In this document: piece by piece, positions 1-20,802 of the stretch
Layout: every line of letters starts with the position of its first letter
Numbering within the stretch: the first letter of the stretch is position 1
DNA from: Mactra quadrangularis
Lineage: Eukaryota; Mollusca; Bivalvia; Venerida; Mactridae
DNA: 64,000 nt
Reading direction: 5' to 3'
NCBI GenBank assembly: GCA_025267735.1
Contig: CM046307.1
Location: forward strand, 682,001-746,000
Position numbers and translations under genes: made by a program
The notes under the pieces: generated by a model
The model's database searches: none
Seen by the model: only the letters and a program-made list of their open reading frames with translations
Told to the model about the DNA's origin: nothing

Positions 1-313
1 TATGCAGATGCCTGCACTTTTTGCATGGTATATTTTTTATATGTTTTAGTGCCATCATCAGAAATCGCTACTGATGTAGATTCCCAATTTGGGATATTGA
101 TTCAATCTAGCTCTAGCACTTTATAAAACTATAATCTATAGGAATTTATATGTATTTCTGAGTTGTCATGTTTTCTGTTTGGTTTTAAAACAAGAAAATA
201 CAGTATGTTTTCGTTCATTTTATATCGGAAACAACTTTCAACATAATGCATAATATCATGAAGACATTATACAGTATATATATATATACTGTAGTTCTAG
301 TGGCTTCTATTAT
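1..313. other. Unassigned AT-rich sequence
   Basis: I see no convincing exon, RNA gene or repeat boundary here. A (TA)n run lies near 275-290. It could be an upstream intron or flank of the KDZ gene. Confidence 0.4.
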
Positions 314-627
314 TATACCCCCGCTTCGAAGAAGAGGGGAGGTACACTGTTTTACCCTTGTCCGTGCGTGCGTTCGTGCGTGCGTCCGTCCGTTACAAAA
401 TTTCCGTCGCAGTTTTTTTCAGCAACTATAACATGCGGCAGTCTAATATTTTGCATATTGCTTCATCCCATAGTCCCATGTGGTATAAAGCGATTTCATG
501 CTCCTTGCTCATCTACTTCCTGTTTGTCGAATATTATTAGATTTCGTTTAATGAAAGTTACATTATGATAGTCATATTTCTCACTGCGGGGGTATCACTA
601 GTGAGCATTAGCTCACAGATTTACTTG
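314..627 (+). mobile_element. Hairpin-ended interspersed repeat, copy 1 (non-autonomous, possibly Helentron-like)
   Basis: Starts TATACCCCCGCTTCGAAG and ends with the hairpin GTGAGC-ATTA-GCTCAC followed by AGATTTACTTG. Further copies are at 9027-9272, 14160-14416 and 15926-16203. It contains a (CGTG/CGTC)n microsatellite near 355-395 whose length varies between copies. It lies upstream of exon 1243-1336. No protein is encoded. Confidence 0.7.
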
Positions 628-1242
628 TTTTTCTTGTCTGACTTGATATATCAAAATATCACCCTTACTTGCCTTCTGACATATTGATATAAATCTTCTA
701 TCAGTGACAGCCCTTATATATCTGTTTCTATAACTCATCCACTAAGTTGAAGGTGTAGGATTGAGCTTGTCTGTCAGCTTGTTTATCATCTTTAAAACTA
801 TATTTGAAAATCACTTGATTTCTTTCAATTAGGACAGTTATTTGTGATGATAATATCAAACAAGAATCAGTTTCATATACTGATATGTCTCTGAAATTTG
901 GGCTTTGAGTTGTCATCTTAAACACTGTTCAGCTAAATTATTATACAGCAGGAGGCAACTATTTAAAGTTAAAATTTTTACTCACATGAACTGCCAAAAA
1001 CAAATTATGTTAACAATTGATTATTAGTTAGTTTTCAAGTAATGACCAGATGATCAACAGTGATTTTTAACTACCACTTACATTAATGTAACTATGAGTT
1101 AAATTTACTGTTCACATTTAGAACACATTAATTGTGATTATGGCTTTTATACTAACTTACTAACACTACTATGAACTGCATTTATTGTGACTTGTTGATT
1201 TACTTTTACTTTACTGATAGTTTTCTTTTGTACTTCTTGCAG
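628..1242. other. Unassigned sequence upstream of exon 1243-1336
   Basis: AT-rich, with no recognised gene. It ends in a good acceptor (tacttcttgcag), so at least its 3' part behaves as intron if an upstream exon exists. Confidence 0.4.
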
Positions 1243-4200
1243 ATGTGAATATAATCCATTGGAATACATGTGTGTGAAAATAGATAATGATTTTGGGGTT
1301 GAAATCAAAGCTCGTCATTTGGTTGGATCATACCAAGTAAGTGTTTCTTTTATTTTTCAAAAGGCCTCATAACTGTAAAAGTGTACTGTTAAAACTTATA
1401 CTGTTGCATTAATTGATTTCAAGAGTTATAAAATATGTCATCAAGATCTATAGTCACATGATCTACTACAACAACTACAAATAAGGAAAACTTATTTTTG
1501 TTTTTTCAATGATTTCTCTTTAGAAAGAAATCATCATTAAATGACTTCAAATCGGAAGATATAATAACTACCTTTTCTCCATGTAAAGTCAAATTGATTG
1601 TGTAAGATTGATTGTAAGCACACAAAAATAAAACGGTGAACAAAAATCTGTTAAAAACTTAGAGCTGATTACACTGATGTGGGCATTTTTACACGAAGAA
1701 ATGTGAAAGTTATTATGTGCACTATTTTTTTTCCCATTTTTGGCTGCTGTAAAAAATGACATAAGACAAGTTCTTGTTTACATTCTTAAGATCACATGGC
1801 CTTATCCCCTAGTATTGTTGATTACTAAAGAAGTTATGTAGCTAAATGCTATTCAAAGTAAAAAATGTAGAAAATACAAATATGTTGCATTGAATGATTT
1901 TATTTGCTTGTAAATGCAAATTTGTATTTTAATTTCAGTGAATCTTCAGACAAACATGTCAATAAGTTAGAACATTTAAGGCTTATTTACATTTTGTTTC
2001 ATTCAGATAACATTTTGCATTGCAGATGCAGTTTTGAAAATTCATTGTCAACATTAATAACATTTCCCATTACTATTTTTATGTTTTATTGCTTGCTCTT
2101 AATTACTGTATTTACTATTGAGCATGTACATATGACTATTACAGAAATGTGTGGTAAATAAGAACTCATCAAGTACAACCAGAACATCAAATACAACCAG
2201 AGTACATAATCACTCTTGTAAGAAGGAGGTAATAATTCTTTACATAATAATACTATACATGTATCATGTCATAAACTAACATTAAGAAACTTTTCTGTAC
2301 ATGTTCAATTACATTTTTGTAGTTTGCGTTCAGTCATGAAAAGCATGTTTTATCATTTTTATCTATTATTTATTACATCAAGTATTGGAACTCCTATGAT
2401 GGCCTTTTCTAACTTCTATAATTATCTGCGCTCTAAATCTAAAAGTGATGTTAGTGACAATAATATTCTGTCAAGTTTGTAAACTGGCCAAATACCCTAA
2501 CAACTCTTCATTAATCTAAAAAAGACTAAACCAATTTCAACAAGAAAAGCACTCAAGCTTTTCATTATAATTAGAACTATTTTTATGCCTACTAATAATT
2601 TAAATTTCAGGTGTCTTGGATATCATGTCCATTCTGCTCAGTGAAGTGCTCCAATGATGATTTCTTTCTGGACCATTTCATCCGACGCCACCAACCTGTG
2701 AATACATCTGAGTTACACCAGAAAGAAATAACTACAGTTTCATCAAGACAATTGAAGGTAGATATGTCAGTTTGTATTTCAATCAATATTTATACTGCAG
2801 TATGATGTAACATTGTGCATTAACAGAAAACTAGTGATGTCTATACTTCACTTATCATAAAATCATAAGTGTTAGATAAAAAAGCATCAGAATTATATGT
2901 TGAGTTACTAGAAATAAATAAAGCAGATTTGTAAATTCCTGCATGTCTATGTGCAAATTAATTACATTTTAGCTCTTCTGTTAGTATGTGTCAGTATTCA
3001 CTGTGTATTGTTTGATGTCCACAACTGCATTGCTAGCAATGCATTAGGGAGTTGCTCAATTATGTTGTAATACCTTATTTATTTAATGGATGACTTGTTA
3101 ACTAGTTTTGAGTATTGTTCTGACATTTTCATATGTATAATAAATTGATGATGCCACTAAATTTAATTTGAATTTAAATGTAAAGTTATATCACAGACTA
3201 GTTTCGCGGTATATATTAAGTTAATTATTATTATTGTAGGAGAAGATGGAGCAATGTGATCTTAATCTGAATTCTGAAGATACCATACTTTTTACTGATA
3301 ACCAATCAAATACAGGTATACTATATATACCAGGGCTTTTTTTCATTGTTTGGGGAAGGGGCCTGGGGCCTTTTCTCATATAGAACATTTGGGAAAATTT
3401 TATCGCAATTTCACAGGTAGGGGAACAAAAAATCCAAATTTAACTCCAAATTTGGGGAAAACTGCATGATTTAAAAGAAATTTCAAGAGGGGAAGGCGCC
3501 TGTAAACGGCCTCTGTTATATAAGGAAAAAAAGGCCTGTATACTGATACCATATTTTACTACAGGGTTGCCAGCAGACTTGAAATTCAGGGAAATTTGAT
3601 ATTTTTTCAAGGTCAGGGAATTGTCAGGGAAATTTGAAAATTGGTCAGTGAAAAATTAAATTCCTGAAAAGTCAGTGAAAAGTCAGGGAAAATTGATTTC
3701 ACCAGAGACTTTTTTATATTTTCCAAGGGTATGGCAGTCTCATTGTATTTAACATTGCTTTAACAACTACTTTTTTTAGTTTTTCTTTATACTTTAAATC
3801 TTATCTATTATAACAAACACTCTAATTTAATTACTTAAACACTTGAAGACAGAAAGGCTTTGCAACCCTTGCCCCCTGACCTTCTTTACTGACTTGTAGG
3901 GACTTGTATTTGATCACACCTGATAATGAGCTTCACTTACAGATGTAATAGTTGATTTTAACATGACTATTGACTTGTTATGGGGTCAAGTTGCCTTTGA
4001 ATTTTAAGTTTTTGAGATTCTTTTGTGTGTTATTTTTGTTTCTTTTTACAAGTTGAAGGAACATGTTTGAGTCTCCACACCAAGCAGTGGTTTTACCTTT
4101 GTAAAATAGATATGTTGTTGGGTGCTTTTACAGTTTATGTTATATTTCTTATACTAGGCATTTAATAATTATTCTAGTCTACTGTTCCATAAAAGATACT

Positions 4201-7200
4201 TTACCTTCAGTTTAGACTATCTTTTTTGTTGTTTAATTTGACAAGCAAAATTTATGTTTTGTGGTACTTTGATTCCTAATTTGTGGCTAAAACATACATT
4301 GTTCATCAATAATGATAGAATTATTAGTATTATAATTTAAGATGTGCATGCTTATAATATACATAATTTCATTTTTTTCAACTCACTTAAAATTACCAAA
4401 CTTTGTGTAGATCTATTATAAAAAGCCAGGGCACTTGTTTGGTATATTTTGGAGAATAATATGGGACCCATTCCCCTCTCAAAATCATATATGTATTTTT
4501 CCCCTGGCTTGTTTCCCCTTGAATTTAAAGTGAAAAGTGAAAATGACTCCTGAAACTATGTTTGTAAATACTACTTGTTCATAAACATTTTTGGGTACCA
4601 AGAGAATAGAAAGTTTAAGAACAACTTAAGGTAGTTTTTTTATTTGTCATTCAACAGTCACAATCTATACTAGCTTTTCAAATCATTTAGAGTGAATGTG
4701 ACTGGTAAGTCAAAACTGAACAAATTTATGAGTTGCCTGAAAATTCCCAACACTGTCTTTAATCAATGCAAAATTACCCTTCCTGAGCATATGGGTACCT
4801 GTCTGGTGCCCTGAAAGCATGCTTGTGTTGTAAAAATTAATACCATACTGTTAAAAGAATAAAAGGAAAACATAACCTATGCGTGAACTGGACAGCTGTA
4901 GGAGAGGTGGAAGCCGATTAAGTTTGGTAATTTTGGTCAGTGAAAAACTAAGTTTGGTCAGGGAAAAGTCAGTGAAAAGTCAGGGAATTTTATTTACATA
5001 TGATGCTGGCAACCCTGTACTAAGTTATGTATTTGCATGCAATATCTTATATTTTTTTACTTTTTGCTGCAATCAGATGACATTATGTATTTTATTTTTA
5101 GCTGGATTTTTCAACAAAAACATACGGCTAATGGTTTGGAGAAACATGTTCGGGCCTCTGCTGACATTAACAACTGGGTTAAAGTTGTCAATTTAGCTTA
5201 TATTTCTGCTCAAATCCACACAATTTAATTATGTCAAATTATCACATTTACTACAAATTGTTTAATGTTATTTGAAACAGCATAAATGTTAATATCTTAT
5301 TGCAATAAGGATAAACTTCAACTTTTCATTTTTGTGCTGTTTTTTTTTTAATGAAAATATATATCTCATGATTGTATTACCTGTATTTCAGATTTATTGA
5401 CTATAGAAGATCATCATGATTCATCTAGAATGCTGTTATTATTGTCAAATGATGTTGAACAAAATCCTGGACCTGTAAGTTATTGTTTGTGTATCTAATT
5501 ATTGATACTGAAATGGGATGCAATTATGTTGTGTAGTAAAATCAACAATTTAAATGAATTTGGTTTATTTCACTTTACCTAAACATGGAAAAAGGATTCA
5601 AGAACGTGAACGTGCATCCAAAAAAAACAAAACGTGTTTTGGTAAACATTAAAATTGAGACAATTCATTTCAGGGGTAGGAAGTATTGAAAATAAAATTT
5701 GTGTAATTCATTTTAACAAAATTAGCATGATTGATAAACCACCACCACTGTAAATCATGCTTGTTATGGTTGAATGCTTTCCATTACACCAACAACTAAG
5801 ACACTTGTAATGCATATCACAATTGTTTATTTCAAAGTCATCCTGGGCATCTCATTGTTATTATAAACAGTGTTTTTGTTTTTTGTACACACTATACCTT
5901 AGCTTTGTTTTGAAAATAATTGTGTGTTTTTCTCATGGGCACTATTTAATAGAGTTTTAGATACTTAACATACACTTTTAATTCTTCTTTAAATATAGCT
6001 TGTTTATGATAACTTGAGACAAAGTACTATGATACCAGTTTATACCCACATGGATCTAAGTACAGTACTCAAAATTATTTATTATTATCGGTCTGTTTTT
6101 GATGTATTCCACATTTAAACTTAAATTGTTTATCTGTCACAGTGGCTCAGTGGCTAATATGTATGCTTTAATTGTATTTGGAATATCACAAAATAATTAA
6201 AAATCAAATGCTCATGTCATGTATATTGGTATGCAAACATTTCCATGTGTAAATATTTTTGTTAGACATACACCTGCAAGTGGGAAGCCTGTACATGTGT
6301 TTTTACCAGATTGGGACAGCTTGATGAACATTTAATTCAACACATATCTAAAGACATTGAATGTAGATGGATGGATTGTAATGTGAGAAAAGAAGATAGA
6401 TGGTCTTTAGAGATACATGTATTACAACATCTATACAATGTGAGTACTTGTTTCTTATAGACACTTATGGAAAAAATAGTTAAATGTGTACACTTCTATT
6501 GAAGAAATAGTTGAATGTGTACACTTCTATTGAAGAAATAGTTGAATGTGTACACTTCTATTGAAGAAATAGTTGAATGTGTACACTTCTATTGAAGAAA
6601 TAGTTGAATGTGTACACTTCTATTGAAGAAATAGTTGAATGTGTACACTTCTATTATGGCATTTGTTATCTACCCCACTAACATTTTATTTAGGAATAAA
6701 GGTAGCCTATTCTCAAGGAATATCTTGATTGGTTTTTGTCCAGTTTTGCTATTTGTGTAACCTAGCTAAGCTATTCAATTTTATTGAATTGTTTATTTAA
6801 CTAAGATTCATACATACTGGAGAAAATCATAGAAATGAGATATTTCTTGAAAAATAATGGAATTTTGATTTTAGAGAAAATATCATGGAAAATTAGCAAA
6901 CATCATGCAAATTGTTTAATGTGTCATGGAAAACCTATATTATGTCTTATTTGATTTGAACCCTTAAAAGGAGTAAATAATTTGAATTCAAACATAAATC
7001 ACAACTCTAATAGTCAGGTAGAAATTGCACCTGGATACAAATCATGCTTGATTTTACCACAACACCGTTTCCAGTTTTCATACACCCCATTGTATGATCT
7101 GTATGAACCCTGATTTACTGATTTATGGCCATATGAAATACCCTGCACCTCTTATATTACATTTCAGAATATGAACATATTTCCATCATTACATGAATGG

Positions 7201-10200
7201 ACAAAACATCTACCGTCTGGAAGAATAAATGATGATGTCACTAATTTACATCTTTGTCCTGAACATTTGGTATGATAGTATCTCTAGTATTTACTTTTAA
7301 GTGTAAATTCATACAAGGCAATGTACAACTCATTTTATAATCTCAAAAGTAGCTTCACTAATGTTTGTAATATGTTATGGTATGTGTCGTCTGTCTGTCA
7401 CTTATTGTCTTTTTGCTAACAAAAGAGTCATTTTGCTTATAGTAATAATTTCTAGAAGGGAGATTATTAGGAGATACCTGTATAAATTGTATTTAAGGTC
7501 AGTTTTAGCTGGACTTAACGAAGTAAACCCCAACCTATAGTTATGGTGATAATGTTAGTAAGTAAAAGATAATGCTGTCTTAATTTTAGATTGGGTTTTA
7601 ATCAGATTGAAGATAATGCAGTCGTAGTTTACTCAATATACCATGATCAATTCACAAATTTAGCTGGATTGTCGAGATATTAACATGATGGCAAGAGATT
7701 CCCAGGTTAGAACAACCTGGGCGTAGACTTCCTTTGAAAAACGCGAAGCGTCCATAGTTCTGATAAAAGTTTTTGTGCAGTAAAATATTTTTACTATAAC
7801 TTTTTATTACTAAAAGTATCAACTTTAAACTTAAAATATATGTTCCTTATTATCAACCACATCTCATGTGACAAGGTTCATAACTAAAAATATATTTTTT
7901 TATATGCCTGAAAGACTTTCGGACATATTATGTTATACCCCCTGGCGTTCGTCTGTCTGTCTGTCCGTCTATGAGCAATTTGGTTTCAGGAGCATAACTT
8001 AAATTGCATTTGGCCCACAATATTCAAACTTCATATGATGATTGCCAATATCCGGTGGAAGACCCCTACTGTTTTTGGGGTCACAAGGTCTAAGGTCAAG
8101 GTCACTATTACCACAAAACTGAAAACAGTTTCCGGAGCATAACTGAAGTTCCATTTGGCCCTCATTATTCAGGATGATTGTCCATATCAAGTGGAAGACC
8201 CCTATTGATTTTGGGGTAACACGGTCAAGGTCACAATTACCTTAAAACTGAAAACAGTTTCTGGAGCATAACTTAAGTTCCATTTGGCCCACAATATTCA
8301 AACTTCATAGGATGATTGTCCATATCAGGTAGAAGACCCCTATTGTTTTTGGGGTCACAAGGTCAAAGGTCAAGGTCACTATTACCTTTAAACTGAAAAC
8401 AGTTTCCGGAACATAACTTAAGTTCCCTTTGGTCAATAATATTCAAACTTCATACAATGATAATCCATATTGGGTAAAAGACCCCTATTGATTTTGGGGT
8501 CACTAGGTCAAAGGTCTAGGTCACTATTTCCTTTAAACTGAAAACAGTTTCCGGAGCATAACTTAAGTTCTATTTGGTCAGCAATATTCAAACTTCATAA
8601 GAGGATTGTCCATATGGTGTAGAAGACCCCTTTTGATTTTGGGGTCACAAGGTCAAAGGTCAAGGTCACTATTACCTTAAAACTTTTTTTCTCTACTTTG
8701 TTTTACACAATTATTCATAATATGATATTCATCTGAAATATTCTCATGTCTTACTAATGCTTCATCTTAACTAAAAAAACAACACTTTTGGGCATATAAT
8801 GCTCCGCCCAGTGGTGCTCTTGTTTTCAGAATTATCTCTACTTGAACTTCTAGTTTTCTTAAAAAAATATTTTTTTACTAGAACATTTTTATTTCTTTAA
8901 GTGTTGACTTTAAACTTTAAATATGTGTTCCCTATCATCAACTACATCTCATGTGACAAGGCTCATAACTCCAAATACATTTTTTTAAATTGTCTCCCAT
9001 GAACTTAAAATTTTCTTTATTTTTTTTATACCCCCGCTTCGAAGAAGAGGGGGTATACTGTTTTACCCTTGTCCTTCAGTCTGTCCTTTACAAAATTTCC
9101 GTCGCAGTTTTCTCAGCAACTATATCATGCAGCAGCCTAATACTTTGCGTATTGCTTCATCCCATAGTCCCATGTGGTGTAAAGCAATTTCATGCTCCTT
9201 GCTCATCTACTTCCTGTTTGTTGCATATTTTTAGATTTTGGCGGGGTATCACTAGTGAGCATTAGCTCACAGGTTATTTTTTCAGACTTTAAAATATGTA
9301 TGTACCTTATCATAAACCACATCTCCTGTGACAAATACTTTCTAAGTCAATCATGCTGTCTCCTCTGACAGCTTTTGTTTATCTCCAACTTAAGTGATAT
9401 GTTGTTAAATGTGTATGGATAATTTTCAAAAAGAAACTCTGACAAAAATAAAAACCAGGTCAGAACGTATTTGGTGCCTAGGAGTAGAAATACTTTTATT
9501 TCAAATGTATTCTTATAGTGTAACTGAAAACTTTAATTAGATATGTTACCTATATATTTAGAGTTTGTCTTGATTCACTACCTTTTAGTTGAAAATTAAG
9601 GAATATCAGTAAAGCCTAACTCCTCATTGGCTTTTATGTCAAGTTTTATAGTAGCATTATAAGAAACATATTATATTGACTTAGATTTTCAAAAAAAATA
9701 GTTGAAACTATATTTACAATTTATCAATTCAACATTACTTTCAGAGATCACAACTGATGCTACCTTTATTGGATGAAGATTTCAAGTTACCACCTAGATG
9801 TTATACTGTCAACGATCATACAGCTTATTTAGAAGGGCTTAGTATCCAAAACAATTTTAATACTTTAATTAAGGGATTTCTAGCTAAAAGGCAATTAATG
9901 GGTGAAGACTGGTCTGAGGTAGAGACTCGGTATAGCTCTTATGATTCGTCTCTTCCTGGATGTTCTACTACCTGTACAACCAATAGCACCTCTACCAGTA
10001 CTACATATGTTACCAGGCCAATATATACTGTCAACTTAAAAGAGACATATGACCATGTTACAACCACTCGACCTGAACTTTCAAATAGTACCACCCAAAC
10101 AAGATTACCTGTTAAAAGAAAGCATCCAGACTCTATCTCAACATTAACTGATATGTCTCAAACTACTTGGTGTAACAACTTGCTTAAAAATCTAACAAAA

Positions 10201-13200
10201 TGTGATTCATCGATTAGACTAGAAAGCCAGATATTACAAACTATGTATGAAAATAATTTGGTGACTGCTACTAATCATGCTTTTTTCAAAATTGAGCAAG
10301 AAGCTGCTAAACTGTGCTCTATTACTGACTGTTGTTCTGGATCTTTTGTTTACTTTGTCTTTAAATGTTTTATTTTGAATCAAGAAGTATATTATATTAG
10401 ATACATTAATGCTGGGGTTTATGAGGGTTACATGATTCAACAGTATTTAGATCAGTTAAAGAAAGAATTTGGATTTACCGATGATACAGTAATTTTACAA
10501 AATGCTTTAACATCAGAAGATATTTATGAGCTTTCTAAGGAATCTGTTAAGAAAAATGTTAAAAGAAATCGACCTGATATGATTTATAAATATTCAGTGG
10601 AACACACCATGAAATCTGCTCTTCAAGCTGTAAAAGATTTTAAAAATTGCCCAGAAATTTCTTTAAAAACTTGGTGTGTTCATTTAATGCCTGCTAAAAG
10701 TAAATTTTCCATAGACTGTCCAGCTGATATGTATCTTAATTTTCAATCAAATACTTTTTCTATTAATACAATTAAAAGCAACTTATTTAACTTTAGACTT
10801 AGTAAAATAGATGTGCCAAAAATTTGTTCTAAAGATCTATTAAATGATTCAACAAATGAACAACAGAACCTTCTACAACAGTCAATAACTATAAATTGTC
10901 TCTGTGGTAATATTAAAGGAAAGCCAGAATTATTTAAGCGAAGTACTCGTTTTGAATCTAATTTCCCATCTTCTTCCACTATTTGTACTTCCCTTAGAAA
11001 TTATACTATTAGTTTGTACTTGAAACAAGATTTTGGAACTATTATTTCTTTCTTCAAAAAGTATTATCCTGAATTAAGTGATGAATCCATGGCACAGGAT
11101 CATGATTTACTGTCTAGTGTTTCAACCAATAAGAAAGGTAGAATAAATACTTTAAAACTTAATGAAGTAGTAGTCACCAGTAATGATTTGCAAAATGTAA
11201 TACCAGTACCCATTTCCAGTAATGCAGAAGTTGAAATTGATATTTTCCAACAATATTGTTGTGCACTTTTAGAAAATGGTTTGTTTAAAATACAATCTTA
11301 TAGTGAAACTGGTTGGCTAGTCTGTTGTATGAATGATTATGGAGATACAGATGCAGCATTTAAGTACAACGACTATGTGTACACAGCTCGCCTGCCCCAA
11401 GAACAAGGTGATTACTACCACTGTAGCTGCTCTGTATTTTCTACTTTAATTAACCTTAAAAACTGTGATACATCTGTAAATGATTTTATCGTTTCAGATT
11501 TGTCTGGTGAAAATTGTGTGACATGCCTACATTGTAAATTTTTAAAGAAATTGGTTATACCAACATTAAGGTCAGGTAATGTAGCAACAAAAATGGATCA
11601 GTTTATTGCTGGTGCATTACATTATCAAGGTAAGGATGTCATAGAACTTGGTAAATTTAGAGAAACATTTAAATATTCTGTTAAGATTGAAAGTGAAGAC
11701 ATGCCAAGTTTTGTTTATTTCACTCTCAGTCAAAGAATAAATAAATATATTGTTACATGTATGAATGGAAAATGTAGATCATTGCGTGGACACAAGAAAG
11801 CAATTAATAATTTATGTAACACCGAGGTTTGTGCTCATATTAATGTTATAAAGAATCATCCTGAGCTTTGGGAAGACTTAATAAATGACCAAAATTCTGT
11901 AGATCTTGATATTGAACTGGATAATGATATTTCTGATGATACTGATTTACATAATGATACTTACTTAGAAAACATTTTTGATAGTAGTTCTGGGCTCTGG
12001 AAATTTAAATGTAGAAGCAGTCATTCCCCAGCAAAACGTGATTGTAAAACTTTAAAATTTAATGTATTAGCTCGTGATCGGTGGAATGACGATAATTTGG
12101 AAAGACTCAGTGATGGTTCTTTAAAAGGTCCTGCATTGTATCCTGCTATTCCTGATAATACATGTAGCTGTAGTGCTGGTTGGATTAAACAAGAGAACGA
12201 TGTAGAATACTGTGAAAATGGTTTAACATGTAATGATAAAACAAGGCAGTTAACTATTTTTACTCAGTTAGCTCCTGTTAAATGTCAAATATTTGATAGA
12301 AAATGTTACAACTCTGAAAATCCTTGTAAGATACTTTGGGATGAAGGAAAATCTTTAAATGTTCATGTTTACAGTCGTGATACTGCAGCTGGGGATGAAA
12401 TTGGGTGGGAATTTGTTTCAATGGTAATAAACTCTGGTATTACATTTTCATCTTATTGTCAGTTAAAGACCGAACTTTATAAATTAAGAAATACTGATGC
12501 AAAATTTATGAGTCTAAAGGTTTTTGTTAATTGGTGGTTTAGCTGGGCATCTAGTATGAATATTGATTTTAGGCAGCCATGTGACGTCTGTGGTTTTGAA
12601 CCTAAACGACTGTGTTGTGATGGCACTAGGGTAGGCATTGGCTTTAGACATGCTAATTATGAGGAAATAAATCAAACTGAAAAAGATTCTCCTATTAATT
12701 CTACTTTACATCGTAGAATGGATCGTTGCTTTTTGAAAAATATGAATGGAATTGATAAACAGAAAATGATAGCTAATAGAAAGTTTTTAGATTATATGGC
12801 AAGGAAAGAGTTAGGTGAAATTGATGATAATAATACTTTGGAATTGAATGAAATGAATTTACGTCTAATTGCCTTAAAATCTGTATTGCCTCTTGAAATA
12901 TTAACATCTTTTAATAGATTTATTTTAATGTCTAGACCAGAAAAAGTAGCATATGCCCGTGTTTTAAAAATGTTAAGTACTACAGCCTCTGTCACAAGTC
13001 TTTTGCCTCCATTATTCTGTGCTCAACTGCAGGAGTTTGTTCAAAATCCAGTTACTGATGGCAATGAAGCCAAGTTAGTTTTAAATTCAATGAGATCCTA
13101 TGCTCCTGAAATTAAAGATCTTATTTGTGAATCAATGAATTGCCATAATGGATATTTGCCATTTGATATTAGACTTTTTATACAATATATTTTAAAGGAA

Positions 13201-13905
13201 TGTTTAAGTTTAAATTACAATGAACCTGCTCCTGCTTTACCTCAACCTGATACATATAATCCTGCTAAGTTTGGAAGGGCATATTATTTTAATAAGACTG
13301 GTCAAAAATTACGTAATATTAGACAGTTTACCATTGATAATGAACATAGTAACAGGAGAAATGTTGACCATGATGATGGCACTCTGGAATTTGAAAAATG
13401 TCAAAAATTGTTTTCTAAAGCCCAAAATTCAGCTAAGGGTACTTCCAATTTGTTTTTATGGTTTTGTGCTGACCACGGTCATTGCTATGGCTTTCATATG
13501 ACAGGTGCCGAAGGTAGAAAAGATCCTGCTGCCTCACTTTATTCATATTTAGAAAATCCTCCAAAAGATATATTTTATGATTTTGCTTGTAACTTACAGG
13601 AATATTGTTTGAACCGAGAAAGTGGTTATTTCAAAAATGTAAGATTCTTTCATGACATTTTTCATGGTTATTCACATAAGTGCTCACGTGCCTTTTCATC
13701 TAGTAGATTACAGGGATTTGAATCTGTTAATTCGGAAATTTGTGAACAGTTCAATAGTTTTATTCAATGTATTAAAAAATCTGGTAGACAAATGTCCCAA
13801 ATTCATTTTTGCTTTTATCTTCAATTTTTTCTGCATGAATGGAATGAAAGAAAGAGAACTTTATATAACAAAAAAATGAGAATAGCAATGGCTGGGTTAG
13901 TGTAG
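1243..13905 (+). CDS. KDZ-type transposase gene, eight exons, with zinc fingers and an internal 2A peptide (5' end may be incomplete)
   Basis: Exons 1243-1336, 2145-2228, 2611-2757, 3240-3315, 5392-5474, 6266-6439, 7168-7269 and 9745-13905. All introns are GT-AG, with clear pyrimidine-rich acceptors (for example ttactttcag before 9745) and donors such as gtaagt. All seven junctions keep one open frame with no stop. Order of parts: a short leader; a C2H2 finger (CPFC...HFIRRH, exon 3); an acidic linker; a 2A motif closing exon 5; two C-x4-C...H-x4-H fingers in exon 6; then the large transposase exon. The first exon starts in mid-codon. The first in-frame Met is at 1268, so either translation starts there or an upstream exon lies outside or was missed. 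If the 2A works, the products are about 152 aa (from Met 1268) and 1479 aa. It could be an intron-bearing transposon or a domesticated gene; I found no flanking terminal inverted repeats. Confidence 0.8.
3331..3538. mobile_element. Small TIR element in intron 4 with 5-bp target duplication
   Basis: The ends CAGGGCTTTTTTT and AAAAAAAGGCCTG are imperfect inverted repeats. The flanks TATAC (3326-3330 and 3539-3543) are identical. It is 208 bp long and non-coding. CAGGG ends are common in hAT elements, and the 5-bp duplication would suggest an hAT5-like group. Confidence 0.55.
3562..5017. mobile_element. 1.46-kb non-autonomous DNA transposon in intron 4, 5-bp target duplication
   Basis: Perfect terminal inverted repeats CAGGGTTGCCAGCA / TGCTGGCAACCCTG, flanked by identical TACTA (3557-3561 and 5018-5022). 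Subterminal sequence repeats the motif GTCAGGGAAA / GTCAGTGAAAA at both ends in the same orientation (3590-3700 and 4938-4990). I recognise no transposase inside. It sits 23 bp from the element at 3331-3538. Confidence 0.75.
5415..5474 (+). other. 2A (StopGo) ribosome-skipping peptide at the end of exon 5
   Basis: In the frame fixed by the surrounding exons the exon ends DHHDSSRMLLLLSNDVEQNPGP. The last eight residues match the 2A consensus D-(V/I)-E-x-N-P-G-P exactly. The Leu-rich stretch just upstream is like that of 2A sequences known from non-LTR retrotransposons and some invertebrate innate-immune genes. In known 2A sequences the ribosome fails to form the Gly-Pro bond and continues, giving two proteins from one frame. 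Here the break would fall between Gly (5469-5471) and Pro (5472-5474), and the intron begins directly after the Pro codon. The motif and its frame are seen; activity is inferred. Confidence 0.85.
6266..6439 (+). other. Exon encoding two tandem C2H2-type zinc fingers
   Basis: The exon spans 58 codons in phase 0. Finger one reads CKWEACTCVFTRLGQLDEH and ends HLIQH. Finger two starts CRWMDC and ends HVLQH. The C-x4-C spacing and the CKWExC start recall ARID2/GLI-like fingers, and DNA binding is the usual role. With a working 2A, this would be the N-terminus of the released transposase, starting Pro-Thr-Tyr-Thr-Cys. Confidence 0.7.
6474..6655. repeat. 31-bp minisatellite, about six copies, in intron 6
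   Basis: The unit AATAGTTGAATGTGTACACT plus TCTATTGAAGA repeats almost without change, starting about 35 bp after the exon 6266-6439 donor. The near identity points to recent expansion. Confidence 0.85.
7904..8825 (+). mobile_element. Repeat element with ~130-bp internal tandem units
   Basis: Begins with the hairpin ATGCCTGAAAGACTTTCGGACAT and a GTCTGTCTGTCC microsatellite. It then has about five degenerate ~130-bp units (GGAGCATAACTTAAGTTCC ... GGGGTCACAAGGTCAAAGG). It ends GGGCATATAATGCTCCGCCC, then GCTCTTGTTTT. A 5' fragment of the same family is at 14550-14750. It is nested inside 7730-9385. Confidence 0.65.
9027..9272 (+). mobile_element. Hairpin-ended interspersed repeat, copy 2
   Basis: Begins TATACCCCCGCTTCGAAGAA and reaches the terminal hairpin GTGAGCATTAGCTCAC, but the usual ATTTACTTG tail is missing. 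Inserted in the element at 7730-9385. Confidence 0.7.
9745..13905 (+). CDS. Large terminal exon: KDZ (Kyakuja/Dileera/Zisupton, HMGXB3-like) transposase domain
   Basis: This exon is open for 1386 codons. Residues are numbered from the Met at 9757. Cysteine clusters of the CxC/SWIM-like type seen with KDZ transposases lie at C556-C558, C590-C593, C668-C673, C803-C805 and C942-C945. The conserved core follows: CDGTRVGI with Asp955, ADHGHCYGFH with Asp1239, FHDIFHGYSHKCS around Asp1300, and NSEICEQFNS with Glu1330. The last stretch (FYDFACNLQEYCLNRESGYF onwards) is the typical KDZ C-terminal signature. Asp955, Asp1239 and Glu1330 are my candidates for the DDE triad, by family analogy. The family cuts and pastes DNA transposons; some relatives are host genes. 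There is no frameshift or premature stop, unlike the two Tc1 transposases in this window. The stop at 13903-13905 may be bypassed by splicing from 13895. Confidence 0.85.
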   Translation, partial: RSQLMLPLLDEDFKLPPRCYTVNDHTAYLEGLSIQNNFNTLIKGFLAKRQLMGEDWSEVETRYSSYDSSLPGCSTTCTTNSTSTSTTYVTRPIYTVNLKETYDHVTTTRPELSNSTTQTRLPVKRKHPDSISTLTDMSQTTWCNNLLKNLTKCDSSIRLESQILQTMYENNLVTATNHAFFKIEQEAAKLCSITDCCSGSFVYFVFKCFILNQEVYYIRYINAGVYEGYMIQQYLDQLKKEFGFTDDTVILQNALTSEDIYELSKESVKKNVKRNRPDMIYKYSVEHTMKSALQAVKDFKNCPEISLKTWCVHLMPAKSKFSIDCPADMYLNFQSNTFSINTIKSNLFNFRLSKIDVPKICSKDLLNDSTNEQQNLLQQSITINCLCGNIKGKPELFKRSTRFESNFPSSSTICTSLRNYTISLYLKQDFGTIISFFKKYYPELSDESMAQDHDLLSSVSTNKKGRINTLKLNEVVVTSNDLQNVIPVPISSNAEVEIDIFQQYCCALLENGLFKIQSYSETGWLVCCMNDYGDTDAAFKYNDYVYTARLPQEQGDYYHCSCSVFSTLINLKNCDTSVNDFIVSDLSGENCVTCLHCKFLKKLVIPTLRSGNVATKMDQFIAGALHYQGKDVIELGKFRETFKYSVKIESEDMPSFVYFTLSQRINKYIVTCMNGKCRSLRGHKKAINNLCNTEVCAHINVIKNHPELWEDLINDQNSVDLDIELDNDISDDTDLHNDTYLENIFDSSSGLWKFKCRSSHSPAKRDCKTLKFNVLARDRWNDDNLERLSDGSLKGPALYPAIPDNTCSCSAGWIKQENDVEYCENGLTCNDKTRQLTIFTQLAPVKCQIFDRKCYNSENPCKILWDEGKSLNVHVYSRDTAAGDEIGWEFVSMVINSGITFSSYCQLKTELYKLRNTDAKFMSLKVFVNWWFSWASSMNIDFRQPCDVCGFEPKRLCCDGTRVGIGFRHANYEEINQTEKDSPINSTLHRRMDRCFLKNMNGIDKQKMIANRKFLDYMARKELGEIDDNNTLELNEMNLRLIALKSVLPLEILTSFNRFILMSRPEKVAYARVLKMLSTTASVTSLLPPLFCAQLQEFVQNPVTDGNEAKLVLNSMRSYAPEIKDLICESMNCHNGYLPFDIRLFIQYILKECLSLNYNEPAPALPQPDTYNPAKFGRAYYFNKTGQKLRNIRQFTIDNEHSNRRNVDHDDGTLEFEKCQKLFSKAQNSAKGTSNLFLWFCADHGHCYGFHMTGAEGRKDPAASLYSYLENPPKDIFYDFACNLQEYCLNRESGYFKNVRFFHDIFHGYSHKCSRAFSSSRLQGFESVNSEICEQFNSFIQCIKKSGRQMSQIHFCFYLQFFLHEWNERKRTLYNKKMRIAMAGLV

Positions 13906-14159
13906 TAAAGTAAAGGATTTTTAATTTGGGATTTTATTATTATATTATTCTGATTACCTGATTATGCCTGAATGGTCAATTTTTCTTTTGTTACTATAGT
14001 TAACTGCATTTTATTTAAATATTTGTGCTGCAAATATTTTAGGGGGGGGGTAAAAACTCGATACATTTTACTTATGCAGTTCTCTTGTTTATTCATTCAG
14101 TACATAAGACGTATTAACTGAATTTAAATCAACTCCCTTTTTATTATCTCATAAATAAT
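13906..14159. other. 3' flank of the KDZ stop codon
   Basis: AT-rich 3' UTR or intron. A run of nine G lies near 14042. I see no gene. Confidence 0.4.
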
Positions 14160-14416
14160 TATACCCCCGCTTCGAAGAAGAGGGGGGTATACTGTTTTAC
14201 CCTTGTCCGTCCGTCCGTCCGTTACGAAATTTCCGTCGCAGTTTTCTCAGCGACTATAACATGCAGCAGCCTAATACTTTGCACATTGCTTCATCCCATA
14301 GTCCCATGTGGTGTAAAGCGATTTCATGCTCCTTGCTCATCTACTTCCTGTTTGTCGCATATTTTTAGATTTTGGCGGGGGTATCACTAGTGAGCATTAG
14401 CTCACAGATTTACTTG
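14160..14416 (+). mobile_element. Hairpin-ended interspersed repeat, copy 3
   Basis: Full-length by comparison with the other copies: TATACCCCCGCTTCGAAG start, (CCGT)n microsatellite, CACTAGTGAGCATTAGCTCA hairpin and ATTTACTTG end. Confidence 0.75.
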
Positions 14417-14549
14417 TTGTATATATGGTAAAACTTATTCAGTTTTATTGTAATATTTTTAACCAGTCTTGATACGTACATGTATGTTGGTTCAATCACA
14501 TAGTCTTTAATCAGTACAAATGACAATGTGCATATGATTTTTATTTCCT

Positions 14550-14750
14550 GTATACCTTTATGCCCGAAAGAATTTTTGGCATATGTTATATCCCCTGGCG
14601 TCTGTCCGTCCATACATCCGTCCGTCCATCTGTTAGTAATTTGGTTTCGGGAGCATAACTCAAGTTCCATTTTGCCCTAAATATTCAAACTTCATAGGAT
14701 GATTGTCCATATTGGGCAGACGACCCCTATTGATTTTAGGGCCGTATTAT
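14550..14750 (+). mobile_element. 5' fragment of the repeat family seen at 7904-8825
   Basis: Contains TATGCCCGAAAGAATTTTTG, CCCCTGGCGTCTGTCCGTCC and one and a half of the GGAGCATAACTCAAGTTCC units, then stops matching near 14750. Confidence 0.6.
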
Positions 14751-14846
14751 TAATGCTTCTTGCTGTAGACTTACAAAAAATTTTATCTTAAGATATTTTG
14801 TGAAAAGAGGCATGGTTAATTTTTTAAACAATTATCTGATATGTAT

Positions 14847-15334
14847 GGTGGCTGATTTACGCTATGTTGCATTGTCATCCTGGGGGGCGCCACAAAAGTA
14901 GGAGAAAATGATCTTTTTGTTGTCTGTTGGTCCAGCAGGGCGCCATGCAAAAACACTATCATATGATGTTTTAATCATTTGCAAAAAGGTATTTATTTGA
15001 CAAAACTTGTTCATGTCATGTTTTTGCCTTAATTTTGTTGTATCATTGTGTTTATGTCTCAAAACCAGTGGGATGAAGATACGACAAAAGGATTTTGTCA
15101 CATCATTGTGTTTTCGTGTTTCACCTTCCCCTCACACATGCACAGAATATTTGTGAAGACATGTGCATGTGTAAGTGCAAGGCAAAACACAGCAAATGAT
15201 TAAAATGTTGTATGAATGTGTTTTTGCATGGCATCCTGCTGAACAAAAATTTGAAGAAAAAAAAATACCATATTGCATACTTATGTATTTTTATGGGGCA
15301 TTTTGCTGGACTACATGGCGTAAATAAGCAACCT
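14847..15334. mobile_element. Foldback/MITE element with internal inverted repeats
   Basis: Ends GGTGGCTGATTTACGCTATG and the near complement of that sequence at 15310-15333 (CATGGCGTAAATAAGCAACC). A second inverted pair of about 50 bp lies inside (14930-14982 and 15193-15245), carrying CCATGCAAAAACAC and its complement. Non-coding. Confidence 0.6.
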
Positions 15335-15693
15335 TAGAAATACTATTTGCTCTAAGTATTTCTACCACGTGTGCATTTGAATCATTCCACATTGGTTGCT
15401 TATCTTGTTTTCTAATTTCTTGTTTACATGATGCAACTTCTTGTAATCACTAAGTGTTTGTCTTAATAAACACTAGCTTGTCCATGAGCAGCCTTTTAAT
15501 TTGTTCATTCTATCACGCTTTTGAAGATTTCTTTGTTAACTGATGATATATTTTGGTAATCATGGGCACTAACTGATTATTACCCTTTTCTTGTTTTTCC
15601 TGAGAATGATAATACAGAAATTTTATGATTTTTTATCACTGATTGTTAATGATTAATTTTCATTTGTTAATAATATTTTTTCTTTTCTTTCAG

Positions 15694-15760
15694 GCATAGT
15701 GTTTACAGCCAATATCCTTTCTCCTTAAGTAAGGAGTTTTGCTGGTACTTAGTGTTGTGA
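15694..15760 (+). CDS. Possible alternative last exon of the KDZ gene
   Basis: A strong acceptor (tttcttttctttcag) ends at 15693. Splicing from a gttagt donor after 13895 would replace the last two codons before the 13903 stop. It would add 22 codons (GHSVYSQYPF...) and end at TGA 15758-15760. A candidate AATAAA lies at 16368-16373 for this form, and another at 15465-15470 for the unspliced form. There is no proof without transcript data. Confidence 0.4.
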
Positions 15761-15800
15761 ACATTATGATTATGGTATATGTGTGTGACTGATGGACTTT

Positions 15801-16303
15801 TATACTTGTCTATTATTTTCAATTGTTATTATTGATCTTATGTATTGTTAAGTATGTATTTAGGAATTGTAGGGTTTTTAGAATTAGTACATTGTAGTTG
15901 TATGTAGATTATACTTGTCTATTATTATACCCCTGCTTCGAAGAAGAGGGGGGTATACTGTTTTACCCTTGTCCATGCGTGTGTCTGTCCATCCGTCTGT
16001 CTGTTACAAAATTTCCGTCGCAGTTTTCTCAGCAACTATATCATGCAGCAGTCTAATACTTTGCATATTGCTCCGTCCCATAGTCCCATGTGGTGTAAAG
16101 CAATTTCATGCTCCTTGCTCATCTACTTCCTGTTTGTCGCATATTTTTAGATTTCGGGGGGGGGGGTATCACTAGTGAGCATTAGCTCACAGATTTACTT
16201 GTTTTCAATTGTTATTATTGATCTTATGTATTGTTAAGTATGTATTTAGGAATTGTAGGGTTTTTAGAATTAGTACATTGTAGTTGTATGTAGATTTATT
16301 ATT
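15801..16303. repeat. Perfect 109-bp tandem duplication split by a transposon
   Basis: The unit starting TATACTTGTCTATTATT occurs at 15801-15909 and again as 15910-15926 plus 16204-16303. The two copies appear identical over the shared stretch. The second is interrupted by the 277-bp hairpin element. Confidence 0.85.
15927..16203 (+). mobile_element. Hairpin-ended interspersed repeat, copy 4, with empty site next to it
   Basis: Aligning it with the uninterrupted copy of the duplication shows that exactly 277 bp were added between T and T, from ATACCCC to ACTTGTT, with no target duplication beyond T-run ambiguity. Insertion between Ts, no duplication and a 3' hairpin fit Helitron/Helentron-like elements better than cut-and-paste MITEs. 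Class assignment is inference. Confidence 0.75.
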
Positions 16304-16367
16304 TCCATTTGAACTTTCATTTGATATATATATATATGTGTGTGTTATTTTTTTAAATATTTATGTA

Positions 16368-16373
16368 AATAAA
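16368..16373 (+). terminator. Candidate polyadenylation signal of the KDZ gene
   Basis: An AATAAA followed by A-rich sequence and a T-rich stretch lies downstream of the possible last exon. It is a common hexamer in AT-rich DNA, so support is weak. Confidence 0.3.
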
Positions 16374-16706
16374 AACAAAATGTTCTTAATTTAGACATTA
16401 GTTGTTATTCTTTAAAGTGTGAAATTTATAGTTGACTGCAATGGATAAATAGTTAAAATAGAACTTTCTGGCTGTATGATGGTCTGTCACTGAATAGAAC
16501 AGCATGCAGTATTGTATCACTAGTCCAAGCACTAGTTAGTCTGTATTTAAATAGTTATACTATGTTATTTCTTTTTGTGTTAAAAGAAATGTTTACTTGA
16601 GAGGAAAACAAGAGTTTATATGCTTTTGTATAATTTGAGAAAAATACTTGATTTAATGTAACCTATTACATCATGGTATATACAGCATGTATATAACTAG
16701 AACATA

Positions 16707-16950
16707 CAGTGCCATCCATATACACCTTTACACTTGTTTAAGCTTGTTTTTTATAAATACTATTGAATTGTATTTTAAATGTATTTAGACATTAGGATAC
16801 TTATGATAGTCATATTTGAAAGGGGAGTAATAATACTTAATGCAATTGTTATATATGACTATGAGTCTGAACTAAGTTTTTAATTTCTCAAGCATTTGTA
16901 ACAATTTAAAAAACAGAAAGTATGAAGGTATTTATGGATGGCGGTCATGG
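16707..16950. mobile_element. Tc1/mariner-type MITE (CAGTGCCATCC ends)
   Basis: The left end CAGTGCCATCCATATACACC is preceded by TA. The right end has GGTATTTATGGATGGCGG. Similar ends occur at 40725-40971, 52577-52820 and at the 3' end of the Tc1 transposase copy near 59405, so the family was probably moved by that transposase type. Confidence 0.6.
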
Positions 16951-17980
16951 CACAATATGATTATGTGTACCAGTATGAGAAGTTAAGTGTTTACCATGAA
17001 CTATTTATTGCCTTCAATGGTAAAAGCTTTACTCGATCATAATACACACTGTTGGAAACTCATGGGTGTATTGCAACAAGAATTTTAACAAATGCATTCA
17101 CCATGAAATTATTCATGTTTTGACAGTTGAGAAAAAACGAACAATACTACTGAAAAGACAAGTATGTCTTACATAAGTGTGTGGAATAAGTACACCTTAA
17201 TAGTTTTCTTTGAAAATTGTTAACAATATAATACATGAACATTCAACAATAAAGTGTAATTTTAAGGATCTGTTAACCAAACAGTCAATGCAGAATGATT
17301 TGTGACTGGTAAGTATATACAACAGAAACTCCAAGTATATCAAGTATGTTTGCTCAAATGTAAGTTTCTATGCAATGTAGCAACTTAATTTACCCTGAAA
17401 AGCGCCAGGGAATTCCTCATTCTTTGTGACAGTGGTGTAGTTTGGAACTTAATGTTCATAGAATAATATAAAGAGACGTTAACAGTTGCATATGTGTTGA
17501 ATCATATCACTTAACCCTATTTTAAATTCACCCTAGCCAAATATACCCGCTTTGTGAGGCTTGTGTGTAATTGTCTTTACGCTGCATTTCGTTAGTTTTA
17601 CATACTTTAGGTATAACTACTCAAACCACAATAATTTTGTTATTATCCCTTTTTACCTAGATTACAAATATTATAAAAGATACATCACAATTTGCAATCC
17701 ATATTAAGAACTACATAATAGAAATTCATTAATAATTAACAGTTTTTATAGTTAAAAATAACCGCATATCCAGATGTAATATTTCAGTCGCTCCGGAGTT
17801 GTCGTTCGTGGATATGGTCGTGCAATAATTTATATAATTTGGATAGAATTAATCAGATTTTTTTCGGACATTTGATTAAATAATCTATGTAAAACTATTG
17901 TTTGAGTCAGTTTTACGCTGTGTAGCATATAATTCTGTCTTTATATGATGTGCAACAAATGCGTTGACCAAATTCTGTTT
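16951..17980. other. Unassigned intergenic sequence
   Basis: AT-rich with no ORF that resembles a known family, no RNA gene and no clear repeat boundary. Confidence 0.4.
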
Positions 17981-17984
17981 CTTA

Positions 17985-18835
17985 TGCTCGGGATCCGTTC
18001 ATCTATATAAAAACATGAGTGGGTATAATTTGTGCAAGAACTGTGTAAGCAAAATCTGTTTCATATACGTAGGCTCCGTGCATTCTATATCAATTTGGTA
18101 TTACATGTATTTGCCTAAGAACTGTTTGTTTTGAGCAAAATTTCTTTCCTATACACAGCATCCGTGCATTCCACATGAAATCGGTATTATTTATGCAAGA
18201 AGTGATAGAACAAAATCTCTTCCCTTTACACGGGATTTGTGAATTCAATTTAAAATATGTATACTTCGAGCTAGAGATGTTCGTTAGAGAAAATTCTGTT
18301 TCATGTACACGGGATCCGTGTATTATGTATAAAATTGGTATTATTTGCCTTAGAACCGAATGTTTGGAGTGAAATTTCTTACATGTACACGAGATCCGTC
18401 CATTCCACATAAAAACGAAATGATAAGTGCAATAACTGTTTGTTTTGGGCGAAATCTGTTTCATTTACACGGGATCCGTGCATTATACATAAAATTGGTA
18501 GTATTTGCCGAAGAACCGTTGTTGTTTTTTCTTGTAAAATTTCTGTTATTTCTTTTGTTTGTTTTGAGCAAAATCTGTTTTTATGTACACGGGATCAGTG
18601 CATGCTATAAAAGTTGGTACTATTTGCGTAAGGACGTTTTGTTCCGGGCAAAATCTGTTTCATTTACACGGGATCATTGCATTCAATAAAAAGTTGGTAC
18701 TATTTGTGTTACAAGAACGTTTTGTTATGAGAAAAATCCGTTTCATTTACACGGGATCCGTGCATTCTATAAAACAAGTTATTATTTGAGCAAAAACGTT
18801 TTGTTTTAAGTAAAATCTGTTTCATTTACATGTTG
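17985..18835. repeat. Degenerate ~75-120 bp tandem array (ACACGGGATCCGTGCATT)
   Basis: About ten units share CTGTTTCATTTACACGGGAT, CCGTGCATT and AAATTGGTATTATTTGC. Spacing varies from about 75 to 120 bp. Short apparent reading frames across it are repeat by-products. The array abuts the Tc1 element on its right. Confidence 0.7.
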
Positions 18836-18887
18836 GTTGGATGCGTTGATTATTTTTATTTGAGTCCATAATGTGGTTAAGAACACC

Positions 18888-19882
18888 TCAGTAACGTGTG
18901 TGCCCCCCATATCTCGCAATACACGCTCTAACTCTCCGCCTCATGGAGCGTACGTAACGTCTAATTAGGATGTTAGGCAACGCCTGCCATTCCACCTGCA
19001 GTGCATTAGAGAGGTCGTTCACGCGTTTATATGGTGGTTAGACCTTACTCTTCGTCCAAGTTCATCCCATATATGTTCAATGGGATTCATATCTGGGGAA
19101 AGAGCAGGCCATGGCAAGACGTTGACGTTGTTACGCGCCAGAAAATTGGTTGTCAAGCGGGCAGTATGTGGCCTTTCATTGTCATGCTGGGAGGTTAGTC
19201 CAGGACCATGAGCCTGCATGAAAGGTGATAGAGTATTCGTGATAATATTTACGTAACCTAGTGCATTCATATTACTGGGGACTACCACAAGTTGTGTCCT
19301 TTGATCCCCCATAATTCCAACCCATACCAACACACTTCCCCTACCAAACCTGTCCCTTTCCCTGATGCAACATTGTGCGAATCTTTCATTTCTGCGAGGA
19401 TAAATTCGCACCCTTTCGTCGGCATGGCTAATTCTGAAGCGAGATTTGTCACTGAAAATAACTCTTCCCCACTGGTTACGTGTCCAGCGTTCGTGACGCT
19501 GTGTCCATGTCAACCTGGCGACCCTATGGCGGGGTCCAATTATCTGCCCAGTATAAGGCCTGCGGGCACGAATTTTGAACATGAGATTGCCTTAGGCGGT
19601 TCCGTATGGTTTGGACACTCACACCAAATTGTCGAGCAGTAGCTGTAGCTAGCAAAAACCAGTAGATGATTTAAGCCGATGAGGCGGTCGTCCCTATGTG
19701 ACGTCAGACGTGGTCACCGGGTCTCGGCGGTCATGTACGGACCCAGTATTACCGAACCGGGCGCTAAGGTTATGAATGGTTTGCCGAGAGCAACCAAAGT
19801 GCTGCTCAACGTTCATAATCCTGGCCCCCGCTTGGAGCATCCCAATAGCCTGATTTCTTTGATTTTCAGAGAGCCGTGGCAT
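18888..19882 (-). pseudogene. Tc1/mariner-family transposase, frameshifted (DD34E)
   Basis: The start is at 19882 (MPRLSENQRNQAIG, an N-terminal helix-turn-helix). The middle (TATARQFGVSVQTIRNRLR) is in another frame. The catalytic half reads RARRPYTGQIIGPRHRVARL ... VIFSDKSRF (first Asp), SQHDNERPH (second Asp), ALSPDMNPIEHIWDEL (Glu). The last two catalytic residues are 34 residues apart. Past 19020 the frame shifts again to reach RVNDLSNALQVEWQ ... RYGGHTRY and a stop at 18888. At least three frameshifts make it inactive. Such enzymes cut and paste at TA sites. I could not define a matched pair of terminal repeats; a possible end lies at 20135-20160. Confidence 0.85.
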
Positions 19883-20422
19883 TGCTTCTGAAAGTCGTAA
19901 GACTAAACAAAAGTGCTTTTCCTTTTTCTGTGAGAAAAGTTTTACTCCACATGACTTGAGATTGTCTGTGGCGTGGTCCGTGTAAGAAACCGGAAATAGC
20001 GGATTAAGTCGCTCGTGGAGCATGTAACTGCACGAAATTTTCCGATTTGTGTAGTACATCAAAATGCCAATAAGATTAGATAGTTTAGCTAATTACACAT
20101 AATGATTTAGCAACGAAATTCAGGTTTACACAATGTAAAGTTTCTATTTTTGCTGAGTATATATAAAATTTGTATTATTTGCCCATAAATCGTTTATTTT
20201 GAGCTTATCTATTTCCTTCAACTAAGATGGGTAAAAACATGTATATTGGTAGATTTTAATTTCTTGGGAACTCCTTCAAATATACTTGATAGCTTAAGTA
20301 CGTTCAATGATAGTTAGACAAGAGTTATAATGTTATGATTATATTCAATGAACATGCACAATAATAGAATAGGCTATATCTATCATTTTACATAAAGTAG
20401 TGCTCCTGTGATTCAGTATTTA
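19883..20422. other. Right flank of the Tc1 pseudogene
   Basis: No gene. The stretch GTTTCTATTTTTGCTGAG near 20140-20157 looks like a Tc1-type terminus, but I found no complementary left end. Confidence 0.4.
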
Positions 20423-20800: not shown

Positions 20801-20802
20801 TA

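Follow-up and report, generated by a model that had tools for sequence, protein, structure and literature searches.

A putative StopGo signal between an SGNH-finger protein and the transposase of a large bivalve KDZ transposon

We propose that a 2A/StopGo peptide separates an SGNH-C2H2 protein from a KDZ transposase in a large transposon of the bivalve Mactra quadrangularis, a reading to which we assign a probability of about 0.8 and in which we infer both that the gene is spliced as modelled and that the StopGo signal works. The stretch of DNA that was analysed (hereafter, the window) comprises 64,000 nucleotides (C15:682001-746000 in a 979-Mb assembly). Within it, the 3' end of exon 5 encodes SRMLLLLSNDVEQNPGP, and the last codons of this exon (GAT GTT GAA CAA AAT CCT GGA CCT) run directly into gtaagt. 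An earlier annotation of the same letters (the sequence-only reading) had described this exon end as an exact D(V/I)ExNPGP match with an intron straight after the Pro codon, and both the letters of the window and the GT donor bear out that description. We regard the octapeptide as confirmed and as lying between a predicted upstream protein and a predicted fingers-plus-transposase part. The interpretation placed on it is partly supported: the evidence favours a 2A-type signal that is conserved in this KDZ transposase gene, the StopGo activity itself is a prediction, and two details need revision (see below).

The octapeptide and its gene model

The window octapeptide matches the core pattern (D/G/C/N)(V/I)ExNPGP in frame within coding sequence, and the only other NPGP of the window, at 19817, is not preceded by D(V/I)Ex. 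The gene model was built from sequence alone, which leaves room for a chance octapeptide within a mis-spliced model. However, only about 1.2e-5 matches to D(V/I)ExNPGP are expected in the six frames of the window, given its residue composition, and the motif recurs in every readable copy and in relatives (see below). In addition, a degenerate 2A core pattern, in which Met may stand in for V/I, has 153 matches in the assembly and 0 when the pattern is read backwards. Given this expectation and the reversed-pattern count, a chance motif is highly improbable, and we reject it.

The eight window exons between 1243 and 13905 (Table 1), with GT/AG at the internal junctions, join into a single open frame of 1639 codons and a final stop, just as had been proposed. 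Read as one frame, the gene would encode an SGNH-hydrolase-like domain, a C2H2 finger, the 2A, two C2H2-like fingers, and the KDZ transposase. The first finger (CxxC...HxxxH, at about 2626-2691 in exon 3) was recognized by eye, with Pfam finger matches below the cut-off. Exon 8 matches the Pfam KDZ domain (PF18758) with 39.7 bits, against a curated cut-off of 26.6. Among 11 aligned sequences, the Asp residues in CDGT and YDFAC are invariant and the Glu in SEICEQ is nearly so; we take these to be the candidate catalytic acidic triad of KDZ transposases.

The finger-plus-transposase part that follows the 2A has 1479 residues (1639 minus 160). The sequence-only reading had one mRNA yielding a small zinc-finger protein and a transposase of ~1479 residues; the second product stands, but the first can hardly be called small, as an SGNH hydrolase-like domain also lies upstream. 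The same reading saw in exon 5 a cassette that could be skipped, and here it fails: because the exon is 83 nt long, its loss would shift the frame into exon 6, which rules out exon-5 skipping as an in-frame switch. The lengths of exon 6 (174 nt) and exon 7 (102 nt) would permit in-frame skipping.

Table 1. Features of the element and its gene, in window positions
Feature	Position	Strand	Basis and remarks
Element part inside the window	1..31493	+	40,693-bp element; left end C15:672801, 9,200 bp before the window; homology breaks and target-site duplications
Exon 1 of the window model	1243..1336	+	AG acceptor, GT donor, open frame; C7 and C18 copies match
Exon 2	2145..2228	+	Frame and splice sites
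Exon 3	2611..2757	+	Frame and splice sites; 60-63% identical to the N-termini of P0003 and P0010
Exon 4	3240..3315	+	Frame and splice sites
Exon 5 (2A exon), 83 nt	5392..5474	+	AG acceptor, GT donor; octapeptide in 8/8 readable KDZ-anchored copies
2A/StopGo core DVEQNPG/P	5451..5474	+	Predicted skipped bond Gly (5469-5471) / Pro (5472-5474)
Exon 6, 174 nt	6266..6439	+	Two C2H2-like fingers at about 6275-6430 (by eye); Pfam zinc-finger below cut-off
Exon 7, 102 nt	7168..7269	+	Frame and splice sites
Exon 8, most of the KDZ transposase	9745..13905	+	Pfam KDZ above cut-off
Pfam PF18758 KDZ domain match	13276..13845	+	C15:695276-695845
27/28-nt inverted match to the sequence just within the left terminus	31455..31482	-	
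Right copy of the 4-bp target-site duplication ATAC	31494..31497	+	

The mobile element and its SGNH part

Immediately before the window, and within the same element and orientation, several stretches bounded by splice-like sequences match relatives at their N-termini. These stretches encode GDSN, HLGSND, and ADGLH, which we take to be the marks of an SGNH hydrolase, a family whose conserved blocks are GDS, GxND, and DxxH. By sequence, Pfam Lipase_GDSL_2 was matched below its cut-off only, and a PDB sequence search with the SGNH part of the relative P0008 returned nothing useful (best E 0.13). For the Mytilus relative P0065, the AlphaFold2 model is of low overall quality (mean pLDDT 45.8), but the first ~190 residues form an alpha/beta fold, whose best PDB matches are PAF acetylhydrolases and GDSL esterases (top E 5.9e-8). 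Motifs and alpha/beta fold together agree with an SGNH hydrolase, and in three relatives (P0064, P0065, and P0008) the SGNH motifs and the 2A occur within one predicted protein. Since the SGNH-motif exons lie upstream in the same element and orientation, the upstream product is most likely an SGNH-plus-finger protein and not a small zinc-finger protein. Window exon 1 is probably not the first exon of the gene, the SGNH exons lying upstream of the window, and we infer that these exons join onto it.

As judged from its sequence, this bivalve element belongs to the KDZ superfamily of DNA transposons and is large, at about 40 kb. The window copy on C15 spans 40,693 bp and is flanked by ATAC, and a second copy on C18 spans 38,935 bp and is flanked by CTAG. 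A scan for target-site duplications 4-8 bp long, allowing shifts of up to 12 bases, gave a single solution that fitted both copies, namely 4 bp with no shift. Identity starts abruptly at the same base in the C15, C18, C7, and C3 copies, which places the left terminus, and it ends abruptly at the right terminus in C15 and C18; a right terminus was not found for C7 and C3 in the DNA examined, so that both ends come from the C15/C18 pair only. About 10 nt inside each end lies a 27/28-nt inverted match, and the outermost bases of the two ends match poorly. In the main blocks of the gene part, the window copy and the C18 copy (C18:22.8M, hereafter C18a) share 97.7-98.7% identity; the value is 96.4% over the following 7 kb and 93.7% in the final block, where a minisatellite lies.

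The long open frame, the splice sites, and the low dN/dS (see below) would also suit a domesticated host gene, and a domesticated descendant of the element may exist elsewhere. For the locus itself, however, we consider domestication very improbable, since two copies have main blocks 93.7-98.7% identical, common termini, and different 4-bp duplications, while a left terminus is common to four copies, the C3 copy is an internally deleted derivative, and other copies have decayed. With Zisupton/Dileera/Kyakuja (KDZ) transposons, the element shares a KDZ transposase domain above the Pfam cut-off. Zisupton elements make 8-bp duplications, according to a passage of PMC12730594, whereas this element, of about 40 kb and with SGNH and 2A parts, has 4-bp duplications in both copies, and by that mark it represents a branch other than Zisupton.

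Several further features were observed in these elements. Arrays of an 86-bp minisatellite lie within the element at window positions 21657-26980, and the C18 copy has them too. A DDE_3 transposase piece, presumably Tc1/mariner-like, is nested in the KDZ element at 19022-19591 on the minus strand. At C3:3862000-3881999, exon 1 of a KDZ copy abuts the later part of exon 8, as in an internal-deletion derivative. A KDZ tail fragment on C184 adjoins a long array of a different repeat, and on the minus strand of that repeat "QNPGPRYPH" is encoded over and over.

Retention of the motif in copies and relatives

The assembly holds at least 10 KDZ matches, and exon 5 is readable in eight of them: the window, C18a, C16, C7, C18:30.9M (C18b), C15:25.7M (C15b), C14, and C10. 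The other two, the internally deleted C3 copy and the C184 tail fragment, have no exon 5 in the DNA examined. All eight readable copies encode the octapeptide and have a GT donor directly after the Pro codon. Across the four lineages into which the eight copies group, synonymous codons are found at D (GAT/GAC), V (GTT/GTA/GTG), E (GAA/GAG), N (AAT/AAC), and both P (CCT/CCA and CCT/CCG), Gly is GGA in every copy, and the sole residue change is Q to S at the free x position. Because of this grouping, the eight copies are not independent. Moreover, some octapeptide-bearing copies are decayed, so that part of the retention among recent copies reflects mere recency: C16 has a frame break within exon 5, just upstream of the motif, C18b has stops in exons 6-8, and C15b has a stop in exon 8 and lacks the exon-6 match. 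A ninth exon-5 copy, on C5, was found through the motif itself and is therefore not counted as evidence.

Three protein searches, one of which used the P0011 N-terminus as query and gave 3 hits, yielded 65 distinct hits, the nearest named relative being P0001 of Mactra antiquata (86% identity, covering 71% of the query). For the sequence-only reading, absence of the motif from all close homologues would have been a refutation; the motif does recur, D(V/I)ExNPGP being present in 9 of the 65 hits: P0002 (Dreissena), P0003 (Mercenaria), P0008 (Mactra), P0009, P0010, and P0015 (Mya), P0064 and P0065 (Mytilus californianus), and P0011. Three others (P0038, P0041, and P0047) have NPGP without D(V/I)Ex and were not counted. 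A BLASTP search with exons 6-7 against all 65 gave nine matches with E < 0.001, eight of which carry the 2A; the ninth, P0007 (Mya), is a model that starts inside the finger, downstream of the 2A, and the sole further row was P0025 at E 0.26. P0010 carries the 2A without fingers, joined (by eye) to the exon-8 homologue. The remaining 55 hits have neither fingers nor 2A, mostly begin within exon-8 homology or have unrelated N-termini, and are uninformative on the 2A. In virus contigs, 23 stretches matched a pattern and none of them encoded a relative.

When the nine 2A-bearing models are aligned, invariance before P0065 residue 617 is confined to the L, L, D, V, E, N, P, G, and P columns in the 2A region; gaps make invariance impossible in places of this alignment, as several models have no SGNH part and two have no fingers. 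The nine include two near-duplicate pairs (P0064/P0065 and P0009/P0015). In P0008 the 2A is joined to the exon-7 homologue; this join and that in P0010, both taken from database gene models, fit an exon border after the Pro in those genes. For P0008, an error in the model or alternative splicing may be the cause, since the C10 copy, 80-90% identical to it over most of its pieces, retains the finger exon in between. Altogether, the 2A is kept in all readable copies of four lineages and in eight of nine finger-bearing hits plus P0010, with only synonymous changes at the constrained codons, a pattern that fits retention by selection.

These patterns also bear on where the 2A would act. With an internal promoter, or a start at the ATG of "MLLLLSNDVEQNPGP" (5430), the 2A would become a short N-terminal leader, and the upstream exons would belong to another transcript. 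An ATG does lie 21 nt before the core in five of the eight copies (the window, C18a, C7, C18b, and C15b), and N-terminal 2A leaders exist in sea urchin NLRs, according to parts of PMC4981915. Nevertheless, the Met is absent from that place in the C14, C10, and C16 copies and in the nine relatives, which disfavours such a leader; the 2A is internal to a longer predicted protein in the nine database models, with P0011 on a 6,366-base contig; and the upstream exons have dN/dS of 0.34-0.40 in comparison with C7. We thus consider an N-terminal leader improbable and favour an internal 2A.

A further question is whether an internal 2A still works. The upstream context (LLLLS) matches the Leu-rich class, and just before the core stands Asn where Gly is preferred. 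In viral StopGo sequences with Asp at the core start, a strong preference for Gly just before the core is described in section 10 of PMC12846837; Q and S are among the favoured residues at the free position in viruses according to its section 9. The preceding residue is Asn in the window, the other seven copies, and P0002, P0008, P0009, P0010, and P0015, and Gly in 4 of the 9 relatives (P0003, P0011, P0064, and P0065). Asn in place of Gly is a caveat that counts against the predicted StopGo activity. It would be in keeping with a relic of an element in which the 2A once worked, now inactive and leaving a single fused SGNH-KDZ protein, given that most viral StopGo of the Asp-start class differs at this place (parts of PMC12846837). 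Against this, the needed residues are kept amid synonymous turnover in four copy lineages, and the 2A is present in Mytilus as well as in Mactra, Mya, Dreissena, and Mercenaria. We accordingly hold a relic to be unlikely and retain the reading of a functional StopGo signal as the preferred prediction.

Other putative 2A cores of the same genome provide some context. Five of the genome-wide cores were sampled; one was KDZ exon 5, and the other four have His, Pro, Val, and Ser before the core, so that, judging by these four non-KDZ cores, a residue other than Gly is common at this place in this genome. One of these four is followed by a PHD finger above the Pfam cut-off. In non-LTR elements, a 2A is followed by a PHD finger, and the KDZ 2A may have come from 2A elements of the non-LTR type. 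Five near-identical cores lie within 585 kb at C13:47271588-47856475, and the one that was read has a PHD finger after it.

Two gene halves, proposed working, and meaning

Comparison of the C7 copy with the window gene as reference gave dN/dS values of 0.34 (SGNH exons), 0.40 (exons 1-4), 0.27 (exon 5), 0.43 (exons 6-7), and 0.31 (exon 8). Both halves thus stay well under 1, and each product seems to have been maintained along the lineages that led to these copies. The synonymous divergence itself falls into two levels, with dS of 0.45 (SGNH), 0.68 (exons 1-4), and 0.57 (exon 5) against 0.10 (exons 6-7) and 0.17 (exon 8). From rounded counts, the difference between exon 5 and exons 6-7 has a Fisher p of about 0.005, and that between all upstream and all downstream exons a p of about 9e-14. 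The C18b copy has the same pattern (0.64 in exon 5, 0.19 in exons 6-7, and 0.18 in exon 8). In C15b, dS is 0.78 in exon 5 and 0.19 in exon 8; its exons 6-7 give 0.43 over 50 codons, contrary to a joint in intron 5, a value to which we give little weight because the exon-6 match is absent from this copy. Read most simply, the two gene halves differ in their history and meet at a joint within intron 5, immediately after the 2A, and the step in divergence may be a single event common to the three DVESNPGP copies. At the window exon 5/6 border (5474/6266), the change in dS from ~0.6 to 0.1-0.2 relative to C7 and C18b suggests module exchange between element lineages.

In the working that we propose, the ribosome would make ...SNDVEQNPG on the spliced mRNA, the Gly-Pro bond would not be made, and the upstream SGNH/finger protein would be released. 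Translation would then resume at Pro-Thr-Tyr (PTYTCK...) to give the finger-transposase, so that a single transcript would provide one SGNH/finger protein per transposase. The SGNH/finger protein may be an accessory that is required in equal dose to the transposase.

Each component has a parallel in known systems. As in RNA-virus 2A/StopGo sequences of the Leu-rich "LLLLSG" class described in parts of PMC12846837, there is a D(V/I)ExNPGP core with a Leu-rich stretch before it, internal in one frame; here, by contrast, it sits in a cellular DNA transposon, with Asn and not Gly before the core and an intron right after the Pro codon. Non-LTR retrotransposons (Heras 2006 and Odon 2013, as cited in parts of PMC4981915 and PMC12846837) likewise carry a 2A within a mobile element, whereas ours is a DNA transposon that encodes a KDZ transposase, is flanked by target-site duplications, and has an SGNH partner. 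The leaders of sea urchin NLRs (Roulston 2016, PMC4981915, in part) are also metazoan cellular 2As, but they are N-terminal signal sequences, unlike the present 2A, which is internal between two large predicted proteins. Finally, PMC4021074 reports a platyfish Helitron with an SGNH hydrolase gene; that gene is a captured host gene, whereas here the SGNH part is in line with the transposase through the 2A.

Parts of PMC12846837 and PMC4981915 describe StopGo as rare in cellular genes; outside viruses, they document it for non-LTR retrotransposons and for certain NLR genes of sea urchins. In our literature search, no title or abstract start among the matches listed reported a 2A in a KDZ transposon, and a search with six Asn-preceded cores found no paper containing them. 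Judging from these matches, a 2A in a KDZ transposon is likely, although not certain, to be new to the literature. Rao et al. 2025 (Cell Rep 44:115822) is reportedly a survey of eukaryotic 2As.

We would put at even odds the broader view that StopGo allows a clade of animal KDZ elements, as the first DNA transposon known to use it, to produce both the transposase and an SGNH-finger partner from a single mRNA, and that the 2A border serves as a joint for module exchange, as suggested by the intron that starts right after the 2A Pro codon. If the proposed reading is true, a StopGo-using DNA transposon kept across several bivalve families would widen the range of places where StopGo recoding was recruited. 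Its relatives would also supply a series of natural 2A sequences in which the residue preceding the core is unusual, and the element would point to an SGNH partner protein that is made alongside the transposase.
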